This document shows, piece by piece, positions 1,397 to 33,501 of a stretch of DNA of 39,829 nucleotides (positions within the stretch are counted from its first letter, which is position 1; each line of letters begins with the position of its first letter). The notes beneath the pieces are model-generated. The model had not been told where the DNA came from. It was given only the letters and a program-made list of their open reading frames with translations, and did no database searches. The stretch lies in assembly GCA_029247135.1 (NCBI GenBank), contig JAQWLS010000100.1, positions 1 through 39,829 on the forward strand, written 5' to 3'. The stretch is from Dehalococcoidia bacterium (GTDB taxonomy: Bacteria > Chloroflexota > Dehalococcoidia > UBA2979). Both the position numbers and the translations under genes were made by a program.

Positions 1397-2959
1397 GTGA
1401 TTTTTGTTAATGAGCTAAGTAAATCGTTCGGCGCAACACCAATTCTACGCGATGTGTCGTTTCACGTTCCTGACGGTGAAAAAATAGGCCTGGTCGGACC
1501 AAACGGTACAGGTAAGTCAACTCTTCTTAAGTTGGTCGCAGGAGTTGAAACACCAGATTCAGGAACTGCTGGTTGTAAAGCTGGCGAATTGAGCTACTTA
1601 AATCAGGATGTACCCTTCGAGAGCGATCGCAGATTACTAGAAGAATTATGGGTTTCATTTGATGATGTGACTTCACTTCAGAGCGAAATTGATAGAGTCT
1701 CTGAATTAATTAGTCAAGGGATGGGCGATATCGATCAACTGATAGAACAACAGGCTTCACTATTTTCAGCGTTTGAGGCGTTGGATGGATACAGAATAGA
1801 AGAGCGCATTGGACGTGTGCTAGACGGACTAGGATTCACAAAAGAAGATAGAGATAAAAAGTGCGGCGACTTTTCTGGTGGTTGGAAAATGCGAATTGGA
1901 CTAGCCAAGATATTGGTGCGTCAGCCGGAGCACTTATTGCTAGATGAGCCCACTAACCATTTGGATGAGCGCGCTAAGGCATGGCTTACCCAATATCTCT
2001 CACAATTTTCGGGAACGGTCGTGTTGGTCACTCACGATCGTGATTTTTTGGATGGTGTAGCAGAGAGAATTGTTGAGCTGCGTGATGGACTGGTGACAAG
2101 TTATGTTGGTAACTATTCGTCTTTTCTCACGCAAAAAGCTGCCAAAATAGCGCAACTTGAGAAGGCAGCCACTCAGGAGAATCGTGAGATTGCTAGGCAA
2201 GAGCGTTTTATTGAACGGTTTCGTAGTAAAGCGACAAAGGCAACACAAGTCGCATCGAGAGAAAAGTCGCTCGAAAAAATTACTAGAACTGTTCTGCCAT
2301 CGAAGGAGAAACATGTTTCATTTCAGTTGGAATCATCAGGTCGAGTAGAGCGTGAAGTGTTGCAGGTGGATGGTCTCGGTCATAACTGGGATGACCAGAC
2401 CGTACTAATCGATGCAAATATGGTTGTGGAACGCGGACAGAAAGTTGTTTTGGTTGGGCCAAATGGAAGTGGAAAGAGTACATTTTTAAGAGCTATTTCG
2501 GGTGAATTTGCTCCAACGGAGGGCAGCATTCTTTGGGCCGACAGAGCTGAACCGACGTATTACGATCAGCACCAGGATGAAGTGTTGGATGTAAGTGTAT
2601 CTGTGCTTGATGAAGTGAAGTCAGTAGCGGCTGGTAAATCCGAGACAGAGATTCGAAGAGCTCTAGGACAATTTTTGTTTCGCGGTGATACCGTACATAA
2701 ATTAATTTCAGTCTTGTCAGGTGGTGAACGAAGTCGGGTCGCCTTGGCAAAATTTCTACTCCAACCTTCAAATGTGTTGCTTCTGGATGAGCCGACGAAC
2801 CATTTGGATGTGACTACTCGTAAGAAACTCATTGAAGCGCTGTCTAATTATGAAGGGACTATCGTGTGCGCGAGTCACGATGACTTGCTAGTTAAAGAGG
2901 TCGCCACTCGAGTTATTCGGGTTGAAGACGGCGAGTGCACCGAGATATTGGATTGGTGA
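1397..2959 (+). CDS. ABC-F family ATP-binding protein (EttA/Uup/Vga-type)
   Basis: This 520-residue protein has two ABC ATPase domains and no membrane segment, the hallmark of ABC-F translation factors that act at the ribosomal E site. Domain 1 shows Walker A GPNGTGKST (about 34-42), signature SGGWK (160-164) and Walker B LLLDEPTNHLD (about 180-190). Domain 2 shows GPNGSGKST (about 354-362), SGGER (441-445) and LLLDEPTNHLD (about 461-471). A charged, coiled-coil-like linker (about 240-300) joins them, as in the P-site tRNA interaction motif. The frame opens with GTG and has only a weak ribosome binding site. Whether it is a housekeeping (EttA, Uup) or antibiotic-protection member cannot be told from the sequence alone. 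Confidence 0.93.
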   Translation: MIFVNELSKSFGATPILRDVSFHVPDGEKIGLVGPNGTGKSTLLKLVAGVETPDSGTAGCKAGELSYLNQDVPFESDRRLLEELWVSFDDVTSLQSEIDRVSELISQGMGDIDQLIEQQASLFSAFEALDGYRIEERIGRVLDGLGFTKEDRDKKCGDFSGGWKMRIGLAKILVRQPEHLLLDEPTNHLDERAKAWLTQYLSQFSGTVVLVTHDRDFLDGVAERIVELRDGLVTSYVGNYSSFLTQKAAKIAQLEKAATQENREIARQERFIERFRSKATKATQVASREKSLEKITRTVLPSKEKHVSFQLESSGRVEREVLQVDGLGHNWDDQTVLIDANMVVERGQKVVLVGPNGSGKSTFLRAISGEFAPTEGSILWADRAEPTYYDQHQDEVLDVSVSVLDEVKSVAAGKSETEIRRALGQFLFRGDTVHKLISVLSGGERSRVALAKFLLQPSNVLLLDEPTNHLDVTTRKKLIEALSNYEGTIVCASHDDLLVKEVATRVIRVEDGECTEILDW

Positions 2960-2972
2960 TTGGATAGTTGTT

Positions 2973-3458
2973 TTAAACCCGTCCTTGGAAGGAAAGCTGC
3001 CGCCAGGCTTCGTAGGTAACTATTGCCACAGAGTTCGATAAGTTGATACTCCGATTTGATGGTCGCATTGGAATTAATAATTTCTGGTCCGTCGGTAGCC
3101 CTTTAAGATATGAGTCGGGCAGACCCGTATCTTCACGACCAAAAAGTAACGAGTCTGAGGTTGTAAATTCTGCATCAGTGTAAGTTTCAGTAGCGCTGGT
3201 TGTGATCGCAAGTATTCGTCTTTCTGGCCACTTTGAAATATATGATTGAAGACTTTCATATTCTGTTATCGAAGCTAAGTCAGAATAATCGAGCGATGCT
3301 CGACGTAAATGTGCCTCATCAAAAGTGAATCCGAGAGGCTTAATCAGGTGCAGTGTGGCTCCGGTATTTGCGCACAGTCGAATGATGTTTCCGGTGTTTC
3401 CAGGTATTAGTGGCTCAAAAAGAACGATATGAAACATTTGGACTAGTTTTTCATTCAT
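2973..3458 (-). CDS. trmL: tRNA (cytidine(34)-2'-O)-methyltransferase TrmL
   Basis: TrmL is a SPOUT-class enzyme that 2'-O-methylates the wobble base of certain leucine tRNAs using S-adenosylmethionine. The opening FHIVLFEPLIPGNTGNIIRL and the C-terminal knot motifs LLFGREDTGLP and IPMRPSNRSINLSNSVAI are diagnostic. Length (161, or 154 from an internal ATG) matches the family. Many homologues begin at MFHIVLFEP, which here is the ATG at 3437; neither start has a clear Shine-Dalgarno, so the start is open. The gene converges on the ABC-F gene with 13 bases between the stop codons and no terminator hairpin. Confidence 0.93.
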   Translation of the reverse strand: MNEKLVQMFHIVLFEPLIPGNTGNIIRLCANTGATLHLIKPLGFTFDEAHLRRASLDYSDLASITEYESLQSYISKWPERRILAITTSATETYTDAEFTTSDSLLFGREDTGLPDSYLKGLPTDQKLLIPMRPSNRSINLSNSVAIVTYEAWRQLSFQGRV

Positions 3459-3561
3459 AAGTATGGGAGTTTACCTCGGAGTTCAAAAGGGTATTGTTTG
3501 ACGTACAGCTATACTCATCGACTTTTCACCTTGTAGCCAAAAATAAACCTATCTTGTCTTT

Positions 3562-18241: not shown

Positions 18242-19552
18242 ATGCAGACCGAAGAGTTGATTTGGAAGAACTGGGCTGAGAACCAGTCATGCGTTCCACA
18301 GCTAATTGAATCTCCGACCACTGAGGAGGAGTTGTCGACTGTTATCAGAAAGGCCGCTCAGGCCGATCTAAAAATCAAGGCTGTGGGTACAGGTCATTCC
18401 TTTACCGGTACGGCTTTGACTAACGGAGTATTAATTGATTTATCTAACTACAAGAATATTCTTGATGTCGATGTCTTAAAAAAGCAAGTCACGGTTCAGG
18501 TTGGCAAAAAACTGGAACATTTGAGCCCAGAACTTTGGGAGCACGGGTTAGCGATGTCTGATCTAGGAGATATTGCGTACCAATCGGTAGCGGGTGCAAT
18601 TTCCACTGGTACACATGGCACGGGCCTGGGGTATGGCTGCTTGGCTACCCAGGTAGTGTCAGCCCGCGTGATTACTGGTGAAGGTGAAATAATCGAGTGC
18701 TCTTTAGAAAAAGATGTCGAGTTATTTCGTGCAGCAGTGGTCGGAGTGGGCGCAGCAGGAATATTGTCGACGGTCACGTTGCAACTCGAGTCCGCATTTA
18801 ATTTGCACGCGCTTGAGATGATGATGCCACTTGAGGAGGTCCTCTCCAAGCAAGAAGACTTCATTCACGACAACGAGCACTTCGAATATTTCTGCCATCC
18901 CAGTATGGATGCTGCTTTTACTAAACGAAATAATAGGACAGACCAAAGTATCTCAGAGTTTTCTAGATGGCGAAGATGGTACGAGGAAGAATTTTCGTAT
19001 AATTACCTTAGGCGAGCAGCTATGGTGGCGACTAAAGTATCCCCACGTCTTGGTGCTCTTATTGGCAACTCTCTACCTTCTGGTACCAGAGAGGATTACG
19101 TAGATCGTTCCTATGCGGTGTTTACTTCAGAACGCAAATTAAAATTCGTCGAAATGGAATATTTTATTCCTAGGGAGTTTGCTCGGGAGGCTCTAGAACG
19201 AACACTAGGCTTTGTACAGAACTCTGGTTTAGAGATATCGATGCCGATTGAGGTACGTTGGGCGAGAGCTGATAACTTACCTCTTAGTATGTGTTTCGGA
19301 CGAGAGACTGCATCGATCGCAATTCACGTCAGGCAGAATGAGTCGTTTGAGCCTTATTTCGTTCCAGTTGAGACCATTATGCGCGATTATGGCGGTCGAC
19401 CGCACTGGGGTAAAATGCACTTTCAAACGGCCGCGACCCTAAGAGATCTGTATCCAGAATGGCAGTCTTTCCAGAGAGCTCGAAAGATATTGGATCCAAA
19501 CGGCCGACTTGCCAATGCATACACTGATCGCGTGCTAGGTCCTATCGAATAG
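18242..19552 (+). CDS. FAD-dependent sugar-1,4-lactone oxidase (D-arabinono/L-gulonolactone oxidase family)
   Basis: The N-terminal half is a VAO-type FAD domain: VGTGHSFTGTALTNG contains the His that in this family can carry FAD covalently, followed by GAISTGTHGTGLGYGCLATQ. The C-terminal ALO domain ends with the family motif RPHWGKMH near residue 400. These oxidases convert aldonolactones to ascorbate-like products, reducing oxygen or another acceptor. The ORF track begins at GTG (18194). A GGAG 6 bases before the ATG at 18242 makes this the best start (436 residues). No signal peptide is seen. It converges on an SDR gene. Confidence 0.9.
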   Translation: MQTEELIWKNWAENQSCVPQLIESPTTEEELSTVIRKAAQADLKIKAVGTGHSFTGTALTNGVLIDLSNYKNILDVDVLKKQVTVQVGKKLEHLSPELWEHGLAMSDLGDIAYQSVAGAISTGTHGTGLGYGCLATQVVSARVITGEGEIIECSLEKDVELFRAAVVGVGAAGILSTVTLQLESAFNLHALEMMMPLEEVLSKQEDFIHDNEHFEYFCHPSMDAAFTKRNNRTDQSISEFSRWRRWYEEEFSYNYLRRAAMVATKVSPRLGALIGNSLPSGTREDYVDRSYAVFTSERKLKFVEMEYFIPREFAREALERTLGFVQNSGLEISMPIEVRWARADNLPLSMCFGRETASIAIHVRQNESFEPYFVPVETIMRDYGGRPHWGKMHFQTAATLRDLYPEWQSFQRARKILDPNGRLANAYTDRVLGPIE

Positions 19553-19573
19553 AGCAAAGCTGTCCGACTAAAT

Positions 19574-20341
19574 CTAGAATCTGTAGTATCCGCCATCAAT
19601 TACGAAGTCTTCACCTGTTTGGTAGGATGAGGCGTCACTTGCAAGATATACCGCGATGCCCGCAAAATCCTCAGGTTGTCCCCAGCGTCGTACTGGAACT
19701 CTCTTAATAACTCTGTCTTCGAAGGTGTCGTCACCCACTCGTGGCGCTGTCATCGCTGTTTCAATCCATCCTGGAATAATGGTATTCGCTGTGATGCCGT
19801 ATCTCGCCAACTCAACGGAAAGCCCCCGCGTCATGGAAATCATGGCACCTTTTGTAGCCGCATACGCTTCGTTTCTTGCCGCACCATCCAAAGCGGAGAG
19901 ACTTGACGTGCCAATTAGGCGTCCTCCCTCTCCGCGCTCGATCATGTGTTTTGCAGCTGCCCGAAACGTAAAGAATGTACCATCAAGGTTGATGCCCATA
20001 ACTCGATTCCACACGTCGGTTGGGAATTCTTGAAATGGTGCGCCCCCACCGGCGCCTGCATTAGCAAAGCATGAATCAACTTTTCCAAATAAATTTAACG
20101 TCTCAGCGAATGCTGCTTCTACTTCGTTTTCCTGCGACACATCGCATCGAAGCGCTGCGGCCTTGCCACCAACCGCAAGTATTTCTTTTTCAGCCGCGGC
20201 GTTTTTTTCTGGATTTGTGCCCCAGATGCACACGTTCGCTCCAGCCTGTGCCAGACCAATTGCCATACCAAGGCCGATGCCACTATTGCCACCGGTGATT
20301 AGGGCTACTTTTCCTGTGAGATCAAAAGGTGCAAATGCCAT
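19574..20341 (-). CDS. short-chain dehydrogenase/reductase (SDR), gluconate-dehydrogenase-like
   Basis: Classical 255-residue SDR. TGGNSGIGLGMA (about 16-27) is the nucleotide loop, NAGAG the structural motif, and Ser in GTSSLSAL with YAATK the catalytic residues; IIPGWIETAM and VIDGGYY close the protein. The pattern resembles FabG/gluconate 5-dehydrogenase relatives. CGTAAAGGAAT precedes the ATG, supporting the start. An inverted repeat 45-83 bases upstream may control it. It converges with the lactone oxidase; oxidation of a sugar acid in the same pathway is conceivable but unproven. Confidence 0.92.
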   Translation of the reverse strand: MAFAPFDLTGKVALITGGNSGIGLGMAIGLAQAGANVCIWGTNPEKNAAAEKEILAVGGKAAALRCDVSQENEVEAAFAETLNLFGKVDSCFANAGAGGGAPFQEFPTDVWNRVMGINLDGTFFTFRAAAKHMIERGEGGRLIGTSSLSALDGAARNEAYAATKGAMISMTRGLSVELARYGITANTIIPGWIETAMTAPRVGDDTFEDRVIKRVPVRRWGQPEDFAGIAVYLASDASSYQTGEDFVIDGGYYRF

Positions 20342-22689: not shown

Positions 22690-23043
22690 CTAGAAGCCCA
22701 TGCCACCCATATCCATACCACCCATACCACCCATACCACCCATACCACCCATACCACCCATGTCACCTCCGGGAGGCCCCATCGGAGCAGGTGGCTCTGG
22801 AATTTCACCTACAGCTACTTCGGTCGTAAGCATAAGACTTGCGATTGACGTAGCATTTTCAAGAGCAACTCGGGATACTTTGACTGGATCAAGGATGCCA
22901 AGATCAAACATATCTCCCATTTCGTCTGTTGCAGCGTTATATCCGACAGTATCTGGACTAGCATCACGGACGTTTTCAACAACGACACTCGGCTCCTGAC
23001 CAGCATTTTCAACAATCTGTCTAAGTGGTGATTCTAGTGCACG
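22690..23043 (-). pseudogene. groEL: groEL, 3' part beyond an in-frame stop
   Basis: This segment continues the groEL frame without any shift. Directly after the TAA at 23044-23046 the same frame reads [20 protein letters not shown], then the [20 protein letters not shown] region that closes the ATP-binding equatorial domain, and finally the glycine/methionine tail (five GGM repeats, ending MGGMGF). All of this is well-conserved GroEL sequence of normal length (117 residues). Codon choice looks like that of the upstream part. As written it would not be translated from the groEL start. The ORF track shows only a piece from an internal ATG (22920). Confidence 0.9.
22715..22759. repeat. 9-bp tandem repeat encoding the GroEL GGM tail
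   Basis: Five perfect copies of ATACCACCC (plus strand) encode GGM on the minus strand. Such tails are usual in GroEL and line the chaperonin cavity. Perfect nucleotide identity between units suggests slippage-driven change of copy number. Confidence 0.85.
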
Positions 23044-24375
23044 TTATACGAGCACGGCACCTGTTTTTTCATCTCCTGATAGAGATTCAATCACAGCATC
23101 AATCGCGCTTTGTGCTCTAATAAAGGCGACACCGCCGCCTGGTACGACACCTTCTTCAACGGCTGCTCGGGTTGCAGATAGCGCATCCTCCAGCCTGAAT
23201 TTCTTTTCACGAACTTCGACCTCAGTCGCTCCACCAGCTTTTATAACAGCGACTCCTCCAACAAGTTTGGCTAGTCTCTCCTGCATTTTTTCCCGATCGA
23301 AGTCAGAGTTTGCATCCTGAATTTGAGCGCGAATCTGCCGGATACGTTGCTGAATACTTTCGTCTGAGCCAGCACCCTCAATAATAGTGGTCATGCTTGA
23401 GTCGGATACGACTCGATGTGCATGTCCCAAGTCCGCTAGCTGTGTGTCAGCAAGCTTACGACCCATGTCATTGGTGATGTAAGTGGCTCCTGTCAGAATC
23501 GCTAGATCCTCGAGCATTGCCTTTCTTCTGTCACCGAACGAAGGAGCCTTAATGATTAAAGGATTTACTGCACCTTTCATTTTGTTCACAATTAATGTCT
23601 GCAGTGCTTCACCTTCTAAATCTTCACAGATTATGAAGAAGTTCTTAGAGACTGCGAGCACCTTTTCAAGAAGTGGTAGAAAGTCTTGCAGTGAATTAAT
23701 TGCATGGTCCGTGATTAGTATGTAAGGATCGTCAAGTTGTGCTTCCATTCGATCATTATTGGTTACAAAATAAGGAGATATATACCCTCGATCAATTTGT
23801 AATCCGTCGACAACTTCGATTTCATCATCGAGTCCTCGTCCATCTTCAATGGTGATGACCCCGTCTTTTCCAACTTGTTCCATCACGTCACCGATGAGAT
23901 CGCCGATTCGTTTTTCATTCGCTGAAATCGAAGCAACGGCTACAATCATTTCTTTTTCTTCAACGGGCACGGACTGGCTCACTAGGTCTTGGATAGCTGC
24001 TTTCGTGGCGGCATCCATACCACGCCTGAGGTACATTGGATTGGCTCCGGCCGCTATATTTCGCAAGCCTTCGTGGAACATCGCCTGAGCAAAGACTGTC
24101 GCGGTAGTCGTGCCATCACCAGCAATATCATTTGTGCGGACGGCTACCGTTTTTACTAATTGAGCACCCATGTTATGGAAACGATCGGTGAGTTCAATTT
24201 CGCGAGCCACTGTCACGCCATCCTTAGTGATGACTGCCGGCCCATAGTTTTTGTCGAGTACAACATTTCGACCTTTTGGTCCAAGTGTCGCACGCACTGA
24301 ATTAGCAAGAATATCTACCCCATGACGTAGTTCACGTCGGGCAGCTTCGTCGAAGCGAAGTCGCTTAGCAGTCAT
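23044..24375 (-). CDS. groEL: chaperonin GroEL, N-terminal 443 residues (premature stop)
   Basis: GroEL forms the double-ring ATP-driven folding chamber in the cytoplasm. The frame opens with [20 protein letters not shown] and contains the nucleotide-binding [14 protein letters not shown] and [12 protein letters not shown] (Asp of GDGTT), the apical [19 protein letters not shown], and the returning equatorial [13 protein letters not shown]. It stops at GAVLV-TAA, where homologues continue IV-x-RALE-P-RQI; the rest is intact in the same frame downstream. The start ATG at 24375 has AGGAG 6-7 bases upstream. groES lies 53 bases upstream in the same operon. A product ending here would lack about 117 residues of the equatorial domain and should not work. 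Confidence 0.95.
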
Positions 24376-24428: not shown

Positions 24429-24728
24429 TTAGTCTTCTAACTTAGCTAGTACGTCTTGGTATCGAATGATGATGTAATCTTCTGAATCCACAGATACATC
24501 TTGACCTGTGTATTTCTGATAGAGAACTCGGTCACCAGCCTTTATGTCATCCATACTCTGAACCTCGCCGTTTTCAAGCGGTCGACCTGGCCCTACAGCC
24601 ACGACATGTCCGTGCTGTGGCGCTTCTTTAGCTGAATCCGGAATAACTAATCCACTAGTTGTAATCTCCTCGGCCTCAACAGCCTTAAGAATAATGTGGT
24701 CTGTAACTGGAACTACACCTGTTGCCAT
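24429..24728 (-). CDS. groES: co-chaperonin GroES
   Basis: The 99-residue GroES forms the heptameric lid of the GroEL chamber. Visible features are the GroEL-binding mobile loop (EEITTSGLVIPDSAKEAPQ, with the conserved GLVIPD), HGHVVAVGPGRP, AGDRVLYQKYTGQDV and the closing YIIIRYQDVLA. The ORF track extends 22 codons upstream to 24794, but GAGAGGAC lies just before the ATG at 24728 and the family length fits this start. The gene is first in groES-groEL, about 200 bases downstream of a CIRCE element, so heat-shock control by HrcA is expected. Confidence 0.95.
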   Translation of the reverse strand: MATGVVPVTDHIILKAVEAEEITTSGLVIPDSAKEAPQHGHVVAVGPGRPLENGEVQSMDDIKAGDRVLYQKYTGQDVSVDSEDYIIIRYQDVLAKLED

Positions 24729-24929
24729 ATCTTTCAGTCCTCTCCCATACTTTATTTTCGCTATCTTTACTACGCGGCAAAAAACTTTTGCCATGTATTT
24801 ACCAGATCTGATTGACGTCGGAAAACCGACTTAGTCTCCATTCTGGTTTTTTGCTTTTGAGTCGCGTCGACCCCGTCGCCCATGTTTAGACGACGAATAA
24901 GTTGAAACCCACCGCAAGCAGAAATCATG

Positions 24930-24956
24930 TTAGCACTCTCCTGCCGAGAGTGCTAG
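24930..24956 (-). promoter_or_regulatory. CIRCE element (HrcA operator)
   Basis: TTAGCACTC-N9-GAGTGCTAG matches the CIRCE consensus TTAGCACTC-N9-GAGTGCTAA at 17 of 18 arm positions. HrcA binds CIRCE and represses groESL at normal temperature. It stands about 200 bases upstream of groES. I could not place a strong -35/-10 pair on the minus strand. Confidence 0.95.
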
Positions 24957-29891: not shown

Positions 29892-29947
29892 AGAGTAACC
29901 GAGGCATATTAACAGTTTGCCGATTAGTAACTAAGTAGGAGTACTTG

Positions 29948-30622
29948 ATGAAGATCAATCGTCGTTTTACAAAATCAGGTCAAAGTCCTTACGAGGGAGT
30001 TTCTTTTGTAAAGAGAGATTCTCGTATAACTGAATTTGATGGGACTATGGTGTTTGAGGCAAAAGATATATCAATACCAGAATCCTTTTCTCAAGTTGCT
30101 ACTGATGTAATGGCTCAGAAGTATTTTAGAAGAGCTGGGGTTCCGAGTGAGACAACACCTATTGCTGAGGAAGGAATCCCGGAATGGGCTCAGCGTCGTG
30201 AACCGGTAGACGGTAGTACGTTTGGTGGCGAAACGGATGCACGACAGTCATTCGATCGCTTGGGTTTAACTTGGGCTTACTGGGGATTGAAGAATAATTA
30301 TTTCGACAGCAATGAGGATGCTTTGGCATTTGCGGATGAGGTACGTCACATGATGGCTCGTCAAATGGTTGCACCAAATTCGCCTCAATGGTTTAACACA
30401 GGTTTGCATTGGGCGTATGGAATCGAAGGTCCTTCCCAAGGTCACTGGTTTGTTGATCCAGAGTCTGCAGAGATGCGGCCATCAACATCAGCATATGAAC
30501 GCCCTCAACCACATGCATGTTTTATTCAGTCGGTAGCGGATGACCTTGTTAATCAAGGTGGAATTATGGATTTATGGACTCGAGAGGCTCGAGTTTTTAA
30601 GTATGGATCTGGTACAGGTTAA
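29948..30622 (+). CDS. nrdJ: class II (B12-dependent) ribonucleotide reductase, N-terminal fragment
   Basis: NrdJ makes deoxyribonucleotides with an adenosylcobalamin radical. This part opens with [15 protein letters not shown] and contains [18 protein letters not shown] and PHACFIQSV, whose Cys belongs to the redox-active set. It breaks off at [11 protein letters not shown]. The ORF track uses TTG (29945); the ATG at 29948 is better, 6 bases after AGGAG. The reading continues in another frame immediately downstream: one base is missing in the codon after GSGTG. Without it the product would be only 224 residues of about 1,184. Confidence 0.93.
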
Positions 30623-33501
30623 ATTTTTCTTCTATCAGGGGTGATAGTGAAGGATTATCTGGCGGCGGACAGTCCTCAGGATTGATGTCATTTTTGAAGA
30701 TTGGAGATAGATCTGCTGGAGCTATCAAATCAGGTGGCACGACACGTCGAGCGGCGAAGATGGTTATTTTGGATGCCGACCATCCAGATATTGAAGAATT
30801 TATTGAGTGGAAAGTAAAAGAGGAGCAGAAAGTAGCGGCTTTAGTTACTGGGTCAAAAATCACACGCAGACATTTAGCCGATATTTTCAGACTCGCTTCA
30901 GATGAGGAGATCGGTGGCAGCAATGTTACTGAGAATAAAGCTCTTCGAAAGGCCATCAGATCAGCGCGAGCTGATAGCGTAGTTGAGTCAGTCATATCAC
31001 GAGTTCTTGATTTTGTTCAGCAAGGTTATGTGGATGTTGATTTTGACGAATTTGATCTGGATTGGCAAGGTGAGGCATATCAGACTGTTTCGGGACAAAA
31101 CTCGAATAACTCCATTCGAGTTACGGCTGAATTTTTGGATGCGGTCCGAAAGGATGATTCATGGGATTTGATTCGAAGAACAGATGGAGAAGTTAGTAAA
31201 ACAATTCGGGCGAGAGATCTCTGGTCAAAGGTTGCATTAGCAGCATGGCAGAGTGCTGATCCTGGAGTTCAGTATGATTCCACAATTAACGAGTGGCATA
31301 CTACACCAGCGGGTGGACGAATCAATGGATCAAATCCTTGTTCTGAATATATGTTTCTTGATGATACTGCTTGCAATTTAGCATCACTTAACTTGGCGTC
31401 TTTTTATGATGCTGATACGAAGGACTTTGATATACCTGCTTATGAACATGGAATCCGATTGTGGACGATTGTTCTCGAAATTTCGGTGCTCATGGCTCAA
31501 TTTCCTTCGGAAGCGATTGCTCGGCGTTCGTATGACTACCGTACCTTAGGGCTTGGATATGCCAATCTTGGAGCTTTGTTAATGCAGAAGGGTGTTGCGT
31601 ATGATTCGCCCGAAGCCTTGGCATTTGCAGGAACATTAACGGCTATTATGACTGGGTGTTCATATGCAACATCAGCTGAGATGGCTGGTGAACTAGGGGC
31701 TTTCCCTCGATATGAGCAGAATGATGGCGCCATGTTACGAGTTATGCGCAATCATCGACGAGCTGCATATTCTTCTCCAGCTGATGATTATGAAGAGTTG
31801 AGCGTACTTCCAGTTGCCATAAATGAAACCCACGCGAACACACAACTTCTTGAGGCATCGAGAAAATGGTGGGACGATGCAGTCGAGTTAGGCGAGAAGC
31901 ATGGTTATAGAAATGCTCAAACAACTCTTATTGCTCCAACTGGGACGATAGGTCTGCTGATGGACTGCGATACGACTGGAGTTGAGCCAGACTTTGCATT
32001 AATTAAATTTAAGAAATTAGCTGGTGGTGGATTTTTTAGAATTATTAACGAATCTGTACCGGCTGCTCTAAAGGAATTGGGCTATACCGAGATCGAAGTT
32101 GATGACATTGTGCAGTACGCAATCGGGTCGCATTCGATTAATAATTCTCCTCACGTTAATCGGCAGGCACTAAGTGAATTAGGTCTGTCAGAGTTTGATT
32201 TGGGTAAAGTAGAAGAGGCTTTAGTTTGGGCTCCTCACGTCTCAGTCGCGGTAAATACGCTAGTGACTGAAAGTGAATTAATGAATGCTTTAGGGATATC
32301 ATCAGATGATTCGAGTGTTCCAGGCTTTGATTTGCTCACGGCTCTAGGTTTTGATGCTGCAGAGATTGCACAAGCGAACGATTATATAAACGGGCGAATG
32401 ACTGTAGAAGGTGCTCCTCATCTGCGTGACGAGCATTTGGCCGTCTTTGATTGCGCAAATAAATGTGGTGATTATGGAACAAGATATATTGAAGCAATGG
32501 CACACCTCAGGATGTTGGCTGCTGCACAACCATTTCTGTCAGGAGCTATTTCAAAAACTATTAACATGCCAACCGAGGCTACTGTTGGAGAGGTGACCGA
32601 GGTTTATGACGAGGCTGCGCGATTAGGTGTCAAAGCACTAGCGTTATATCGTGATGGATCTAAATTATCCCAACCGTTGTCTTCTGATAAGAGCATGTTG
32701 TTGTCGGGTGGCGAGGAATTTGAGGATACTGAGGAGTTTACACAAGCGATTGTTGAATCCGCTGAACGATTGATTGGATTACGCCGTGGCCACCGAGAAG
32801 ATTTGCCTAGTCGCAGACCTGGTGGGTATACCCAAAAAGCTATGGTTGGCGGACACACTATTTATTTACGAACTGGTGAATATCCAGAGACTGGTGATGA
32901 TGGTCGGCCACGTTTAGGTGAGATATTTATTGATACGGCCAAGGATGGTGCGGCTTTTCGTAGTTTGATGAATTGTTTTGCAACTGCAGTTTCGGTGGGT
33001 TTGCAATATGGAGTTCCTCTTGAAACGTTTGTTGATAAGTTTACGTTTAGAGCATTCGAGCCAGCTGGTTTGGTGCAAGGGCATGATCGAATTAAGAATG
33101 CACGATCAATTATTGACTACATATTCCGAGATCTTGGTGTGACATATCTTGGGATGGAGAATTTAGCACATGTTCCTGAGATTGAGACAGAGGAGCAGAG
33201 TACTTCAATTCATGCCGAATCAGAGGTGCTTTCGTCTGATTTAATAGATGAGCCAGATAATATTTCGGTTTTGGAATTTCCTGCGCGAATGCCGGTAGTA
33301 GAGGAACCAGTAACTCCAGTAATTAGTGGTGGTGGAACTGATCTTTCCACGACAGAGTCAACGCTCTTAGCACAGCAAACAGAGGCAAAGAGATACGGGT
33401 TTGAGGGTGACGCCTGTGCTATGTGTGGTGAATTTAAGATGGTAAGGTCTGGCACCTGTTTGAAGTGCATGGTGTGTGGTGAAACTACAGGCTGTAGCTA
33501 G
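30622..33501 (+). pseudogene. nrdJ: class II ribonucleotide reductase, catalytic remainder in shifted frame
   Basis: From base 30622 this frame reads [20 protein letters not shown], the exact continuation of the upstream fragment. It holds the active-site [40 protein letters not shown], the C-terminal TSCPD-type domain ([20 protein letters not shown] to [19 protein letters not shown]) and a Cys-rich tail ([22 protein letters not shown]) that relays electrons in long NrdJ proteins. The ORF track starts at an internal ATG (30682). Apart from the one-base lesion the gene appears intact, with about 960 residues here. Its TAG stop overlaps the stop of convergent pepP. Confidence 0.92.

Follow-up and report, generated by a model that had tools for sequence, protein, structure and literature searches.

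According to one report (PMC11978752), bacteria that possess several chaperonins never lack one whose tail is rich in Gly and Met. Myxococcus xanthus has two groELs and tolerates the deletion of either, but not that of its one groES (PMC5406781). In programmed recoding, of which the prfB frameshift and selenocysteine TGA codons are examples, conserved frames also contain a stop codon, and single-base lesions and consensus errors are known from MAGs. The literature on groEL in SAR202-type Chloroflexi, when searched, yielded nothing useful. The case described here resembles M. xanthus in having a pair of groELs, of which one belongs to a groESL operon and the other stands alone, with a single groES detected; loss of one groEL was brought about there by laboratory deletion, whereas here a single base is concerned, in the copy with the GGM tail.

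The window, the whole stretch of 39,829 bases that was analysed, is one complete contig (C13) of a Dehalococcoidia (Chloroflexota) draft genome, G000 (1.60 Mb in 115 contigs, 72% complete, 2.2% contaminated). It was compared with its congeners Dehalococcoidia bacterium PW3.metabat2.132 (JAPYRK01; G001), the nearest relative, with a 92% complete genome, UBA2979 (G002), and Chloroflexi bacterium RS381 from Tara Red Sea (G003), from the last of which we infer that the organism is marine. G001 is syntenic with positions 12284-39829 of the window (27.5 kb) at 85.5% DNA identity.

The interrupted gene, groEL1, occupies positions 22690..24375 on the minus strand, comprises 561 codons when read through the stop, and ends in a GGM-rich C-terminal tail. 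The first-pass annotation had described a groEL broken by a single in-frame TAA and otherwise in register to the GGM tail, and translation of 22690-24375 (minus) agrees on both points: there is one internal stop, with the frame open on both sides of it. The stop is codon 444, at 23044..23046 (TAA on the gene strand, minus; TTA on the plus strand), in the codon triplet GTA-TAA-CGT at 23041-23049, and the part upstream of it appears in the list of open reading frames as a 443 aa product at 23044..24375. The Cpn60_TCP1 profile (PF00118) matches the read-through frame with 237 bits over profile positions 1-483 of 490, with the one TAA inside the match. Compared with the intact 560-aa groEL of the nearest relative (G001:C6), the frame has 96% protein identity with the stop as its sole interruption, and is thus not a chance reading. 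Of the features of a GroEL/Cpn60 gene, groEL1 shows the full-length profile match and a groES directly upstream, and departs from them in its interrupted frame.

This groES lies at 24429..24794 (minus), with a Cpn10 match (PF00166) at 24441-24716, and is separated from the groEL1 start by 53 bases. Each of the four genus members scanned has a single PF00166 match, and this is the only groES detected in G000. Upstream of groES, at 24930..24956 (minus), an inverted repeat resembling CIRCE, the HrcA operator type, was read in the sequence as CTAGCACTC-N9-GAGTGCTAA; the 54-base stretch that contains it is 87% conserved in G002 and G003. The repeat suggests that the groES-groEL1 operon may be under heat-shock control of the HrcA type.

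Selection on groEL1 was estimated from the comparison with G001, for which the NG86 values of dN/dS are 0.018/0.722 (about 0.025) in the part preceding the stop and 0.024/0.835 (about 0.029) in the part following it; constraint is undiminished on both sides. When G003 was used as outgroup, three of the placeable amino-acid changes fell on the branch of the window groEL1 and more than threefold that number on the G001 branch. Likewise, in a tree of 28 groELs the terminal branch of the window groEL1 measures 0.0068, against 0.036 for its intact sister. We therefore rejected an old pseudogene, given the low dN/dS on both sides of the stop and the short branch. Of the marks of a pseudogene, groEL1 carries a disabling lesion, with neither relaxed selection nor further lesions, a state that would also fit a very recent lesion. 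By these sequence comparisons, the gene is either intact in nature or was broken very recently.

At the position equivalent to codon 444, G001 has CAA (Gln) and G003 has CGA (Arg), while the rest of the family has mostly Arg, with a few members carrying Lys, Gln or Tyr. All aligned relatives that cover the codon have a sense codon there, none a stop, and in a scan of 60 genomes groEL1 of G000 was the only groEL match with an internal stop. The comparison of close relatives that the first-pass annotation had proposed thus gives a sense codon throughout. Its expectation of Arg, Leu or Lys at this codon holds for Arg, found in most of the family and in G003, and fails in near relatives for Leu and Lys, the nearest one having Gln. 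Since that relative has CAA, the lesion amounts to one C-to-T difference. G002 gave no usable codon here, its groEL being cut off where a contig ends: at 18787-19879 of G002:C17 the gene breaks, a stretch is inserted, and the two pieces overlap by 23 bases, which looks like an assembly artefact. To find another sequence of the species, the exact pattern around the groEL1 stop was sought in viral contigs and the 5' 300 bases in plasmids, in both cases with no match.

In-frame TAG codons were seen in one of the two groELs of each of two genomes that belong to one genus in another family of the class (G179:C1:996273-997772, minus; G208:C78:6845-8344, plus). The positions differ, the TAG lying in the first half of the gene in G179 and in the later part in G208. 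Because the ABC-transporter genes of both genomes are free of internal stops and no PylS passed the cut-off, a genome-wide reassignment of TAG is not indicated in them.

A search of the genome for another groEL, also put forward in the first-pass annotation, found groEL2, which is complete and intact on G000:C99 (612-2225, 537 aa). It lacks both a neighbouring groES and a GGM tail, its C-terminus being NAAPAMPGGEMY; the GGM tail and the groES operon belong to groEL1. Contamination as the source of groEL2 was rejected, as in the tree it clusters on a short branch with the second groELs of G001, G002 and G003. At least two groEL matches, some of them partial, were found in 29 of 35 genus and family relatives. 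A second groEL is thus usual in the family and by itself no argument for decay, though its presence makes a real decay of groEL1 possible. In some family members, paralogs of either kind, operon copies included, have no clear GGM tail, so that an argument from the Gly-Met tail is mild and the reported rule perhaps not strict here.

Further lesions were sought in a census of 303 G001 genes against G000, which covered 659 kb of G000 (1604 kb total) and 1.27 Mb of G001. Of these genes, 280 were intact and 17 differed near an end only, leaving six interior flags. Three of the flags are clear lesions, namely the groEL TAA and two single-base deletions; the other three, at residue 161 of 172 and at residues 52 and 61 of about 487, lie close to the terminal cut-offs and look like differences in start or end annotation. 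In the reverse comparison one gene of 293 was flagged, again near its start. One of the deletions is on the same contig, 7.6 kb from groEL1, in a ribonucleotide reductase (RNR) large-subunit gene at 29945..33501 (plus) that we read as adenosylcobalamin-dependent. In pairwise alignment with the intact gene of G001 it lacks one base at about 30620; a TAA is met in frame 0 at 30620..30622 (plus), and both parts of the gene are about 95% identical to the G001 gene. No other Ribonuc_red_lgC gene was detected in G000, and the gene is intact in G001, G002 and G003; G001, at its 92% completeness, has just one reductase gene. A real null of this gene should be lethal, unless the missing 28% of G000 holds another reductase. 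The other deletion, of one base in a GGG run, affects a CaiB/BaiF-like CoA-transferase gene (L172, G000:C34, 9964-12473, minus) that is intact in G001:C19. The load of single-base lesions in G000 is thus small yet real, and strongly constrained genes account for two of the three clear cases; that two lesions fall within 7.6 kb may hint, weakly with three clear lesions in all, at thin coverage of the contig.

Error, a recent nonsense mutation accompanied by a second groEL, and readthrough had been listed as options in the first-pass annotation; our results favour the error, leave the nonsense mutation possible in view of groEL2, and speak against readthrough. In the explanation that we consider probable, the TAA belongs to the assembly and does not represent the living population. 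The MAG consensus would have a T for the C of a CAA (Gln) codon, either through a consensus or sequencing error or because a defective minor allele entered a contig whose coverage is probably thin; the organism would make full-length GroEL1 from an intact groES-groEL operon. Support comes from the fragmented and incomplete state of the draft, the sense codon in relatives, the other clear single-base lesions, that in RNR among them, and the undiminished constraint on groEL1, and also from the interrupted copy being the one with the tail that is reported always to be kept (PMC11978752). An error would account at once for the absent decay, for the hit on the operon-borne GGM-tailed copy and for the neighbouring RNR lesion. 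As in other MAGs with such errors, one substitution and two 1-base deletions lie in otherwise constrained genes; groEL1 differs in that its lesion, as read in the consensus, is a substitution and the other clear ones are deletions. Against an error stand the complete groEL2, the low rate of three lesions in 303 genes, which is within ordinary pseudogene reach, the second reductase that the missing part of the genome could hold, and the possible laxity of the tail rule. The change of CAA to TAA by C-to-T is moreover a common natural nonsense mutation, which also counts against an artefact. That this particular base is wrong is what we infer from the whole.

A very recent, real nonsense mutation of the lineage or strain is unlikely, though the likeliest of the alternatives. 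The protein would then end after residue 443, short of the final part of the equatorial domain, and groEL2, perhaps with the surviving groES, would cover the chaperonin function. The intact groEL2 with its congeneric cluster, the normality of paralogous groELs among the relatives and the nature of the change, a single transition, all agree with it, and the M. xanthus precedent, in which deletion of either groEL is tolerated (PMC5406781), means together with the complete groEL2 that loss of groEL1 could be survivable. The undecayed sequence does not agree with it, dN/dS being equally low on both sides of the stop and the branch shorter than that of the intact sister, nor do the conserved groES and CIRCE-like element upstream, nor the position of the lesion in the copy that has the operon and the tail; and an equally damaging lesion nearby affects the one reductase detected, where a real loss is difficult to believe. 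The stronger claim would be that groEL1, with its operon and its GGM tail, has just disappeared from a free-living marine Chloroflexota lineage that now depends on groEL2, which lacks a groES, as its only GroEL; this would break the reported tail rule, and we regard it as quite improbable. Readthrough of the TAA, by leaky termination or a suppressor tRNA with full-length GroEL1 as the product, is very improbable, although the part downstream of the stop is in frame and constrained and the base after the stop is C, a weak termination context. Unlike in programmed recoding, the stop is conserved in no relative, and neither another clear in-frame stop by substitution among the 303 genes nor a matching tRNA in the 659 kb was found; the abundant GroEL would also be an unlikely target of inefficient readthrough. 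Reassignment of TAA was rejected, as it is the commonest terminator (114 of 296 comparable genes; TAG 113, TGA 69) and groEL is the only gene of the 303 with a clear interior stop by substitution. A suppressor tRNA was rejected as well: ARAGORN, run over about 659 of the 1604 kb, found none with the anticodon UUA; the only stop-reading tRNA found is a selenocysteine tRNA with anticodon TCA, which reads TGA (L164, G000:C26, 3816-3912, minus). A split chaperonin, made of the 443-residue fragment and a C-terminal one produced by re-initiation, has a negligible chance of being correct: both parts are intact coding sequence, but the break lies inside the equatorial domain, no start codon follows closely 3' of the stop, and no relative has a split groEL. 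The break would also precede what we take, by homology to E. coli GroEL, to be ATP-site residues, around N479 and D495.

The case is mainly a caution: a single-base lesion in a core gene of an environmental draft genome needs to be weighed against relatives, the lesion rate of that genome and the reads before readthrough or the loss of an essential gene is claimed. Were the mutation real, it would be a natural loss of an operon-borne, Gly-Met-tailed chaperonin with the stand-alone paralog kept, and would bear on why bacteria keep several groELs.

Adjoining groEL2, at 2560-3540 (minus) of the same contig (L002, G000:C99), a SelD-like gene was recognized by reading of the sequence. Together with the selenocysteine tRNA, it indicates that the lineage probably makes selenoproteins.
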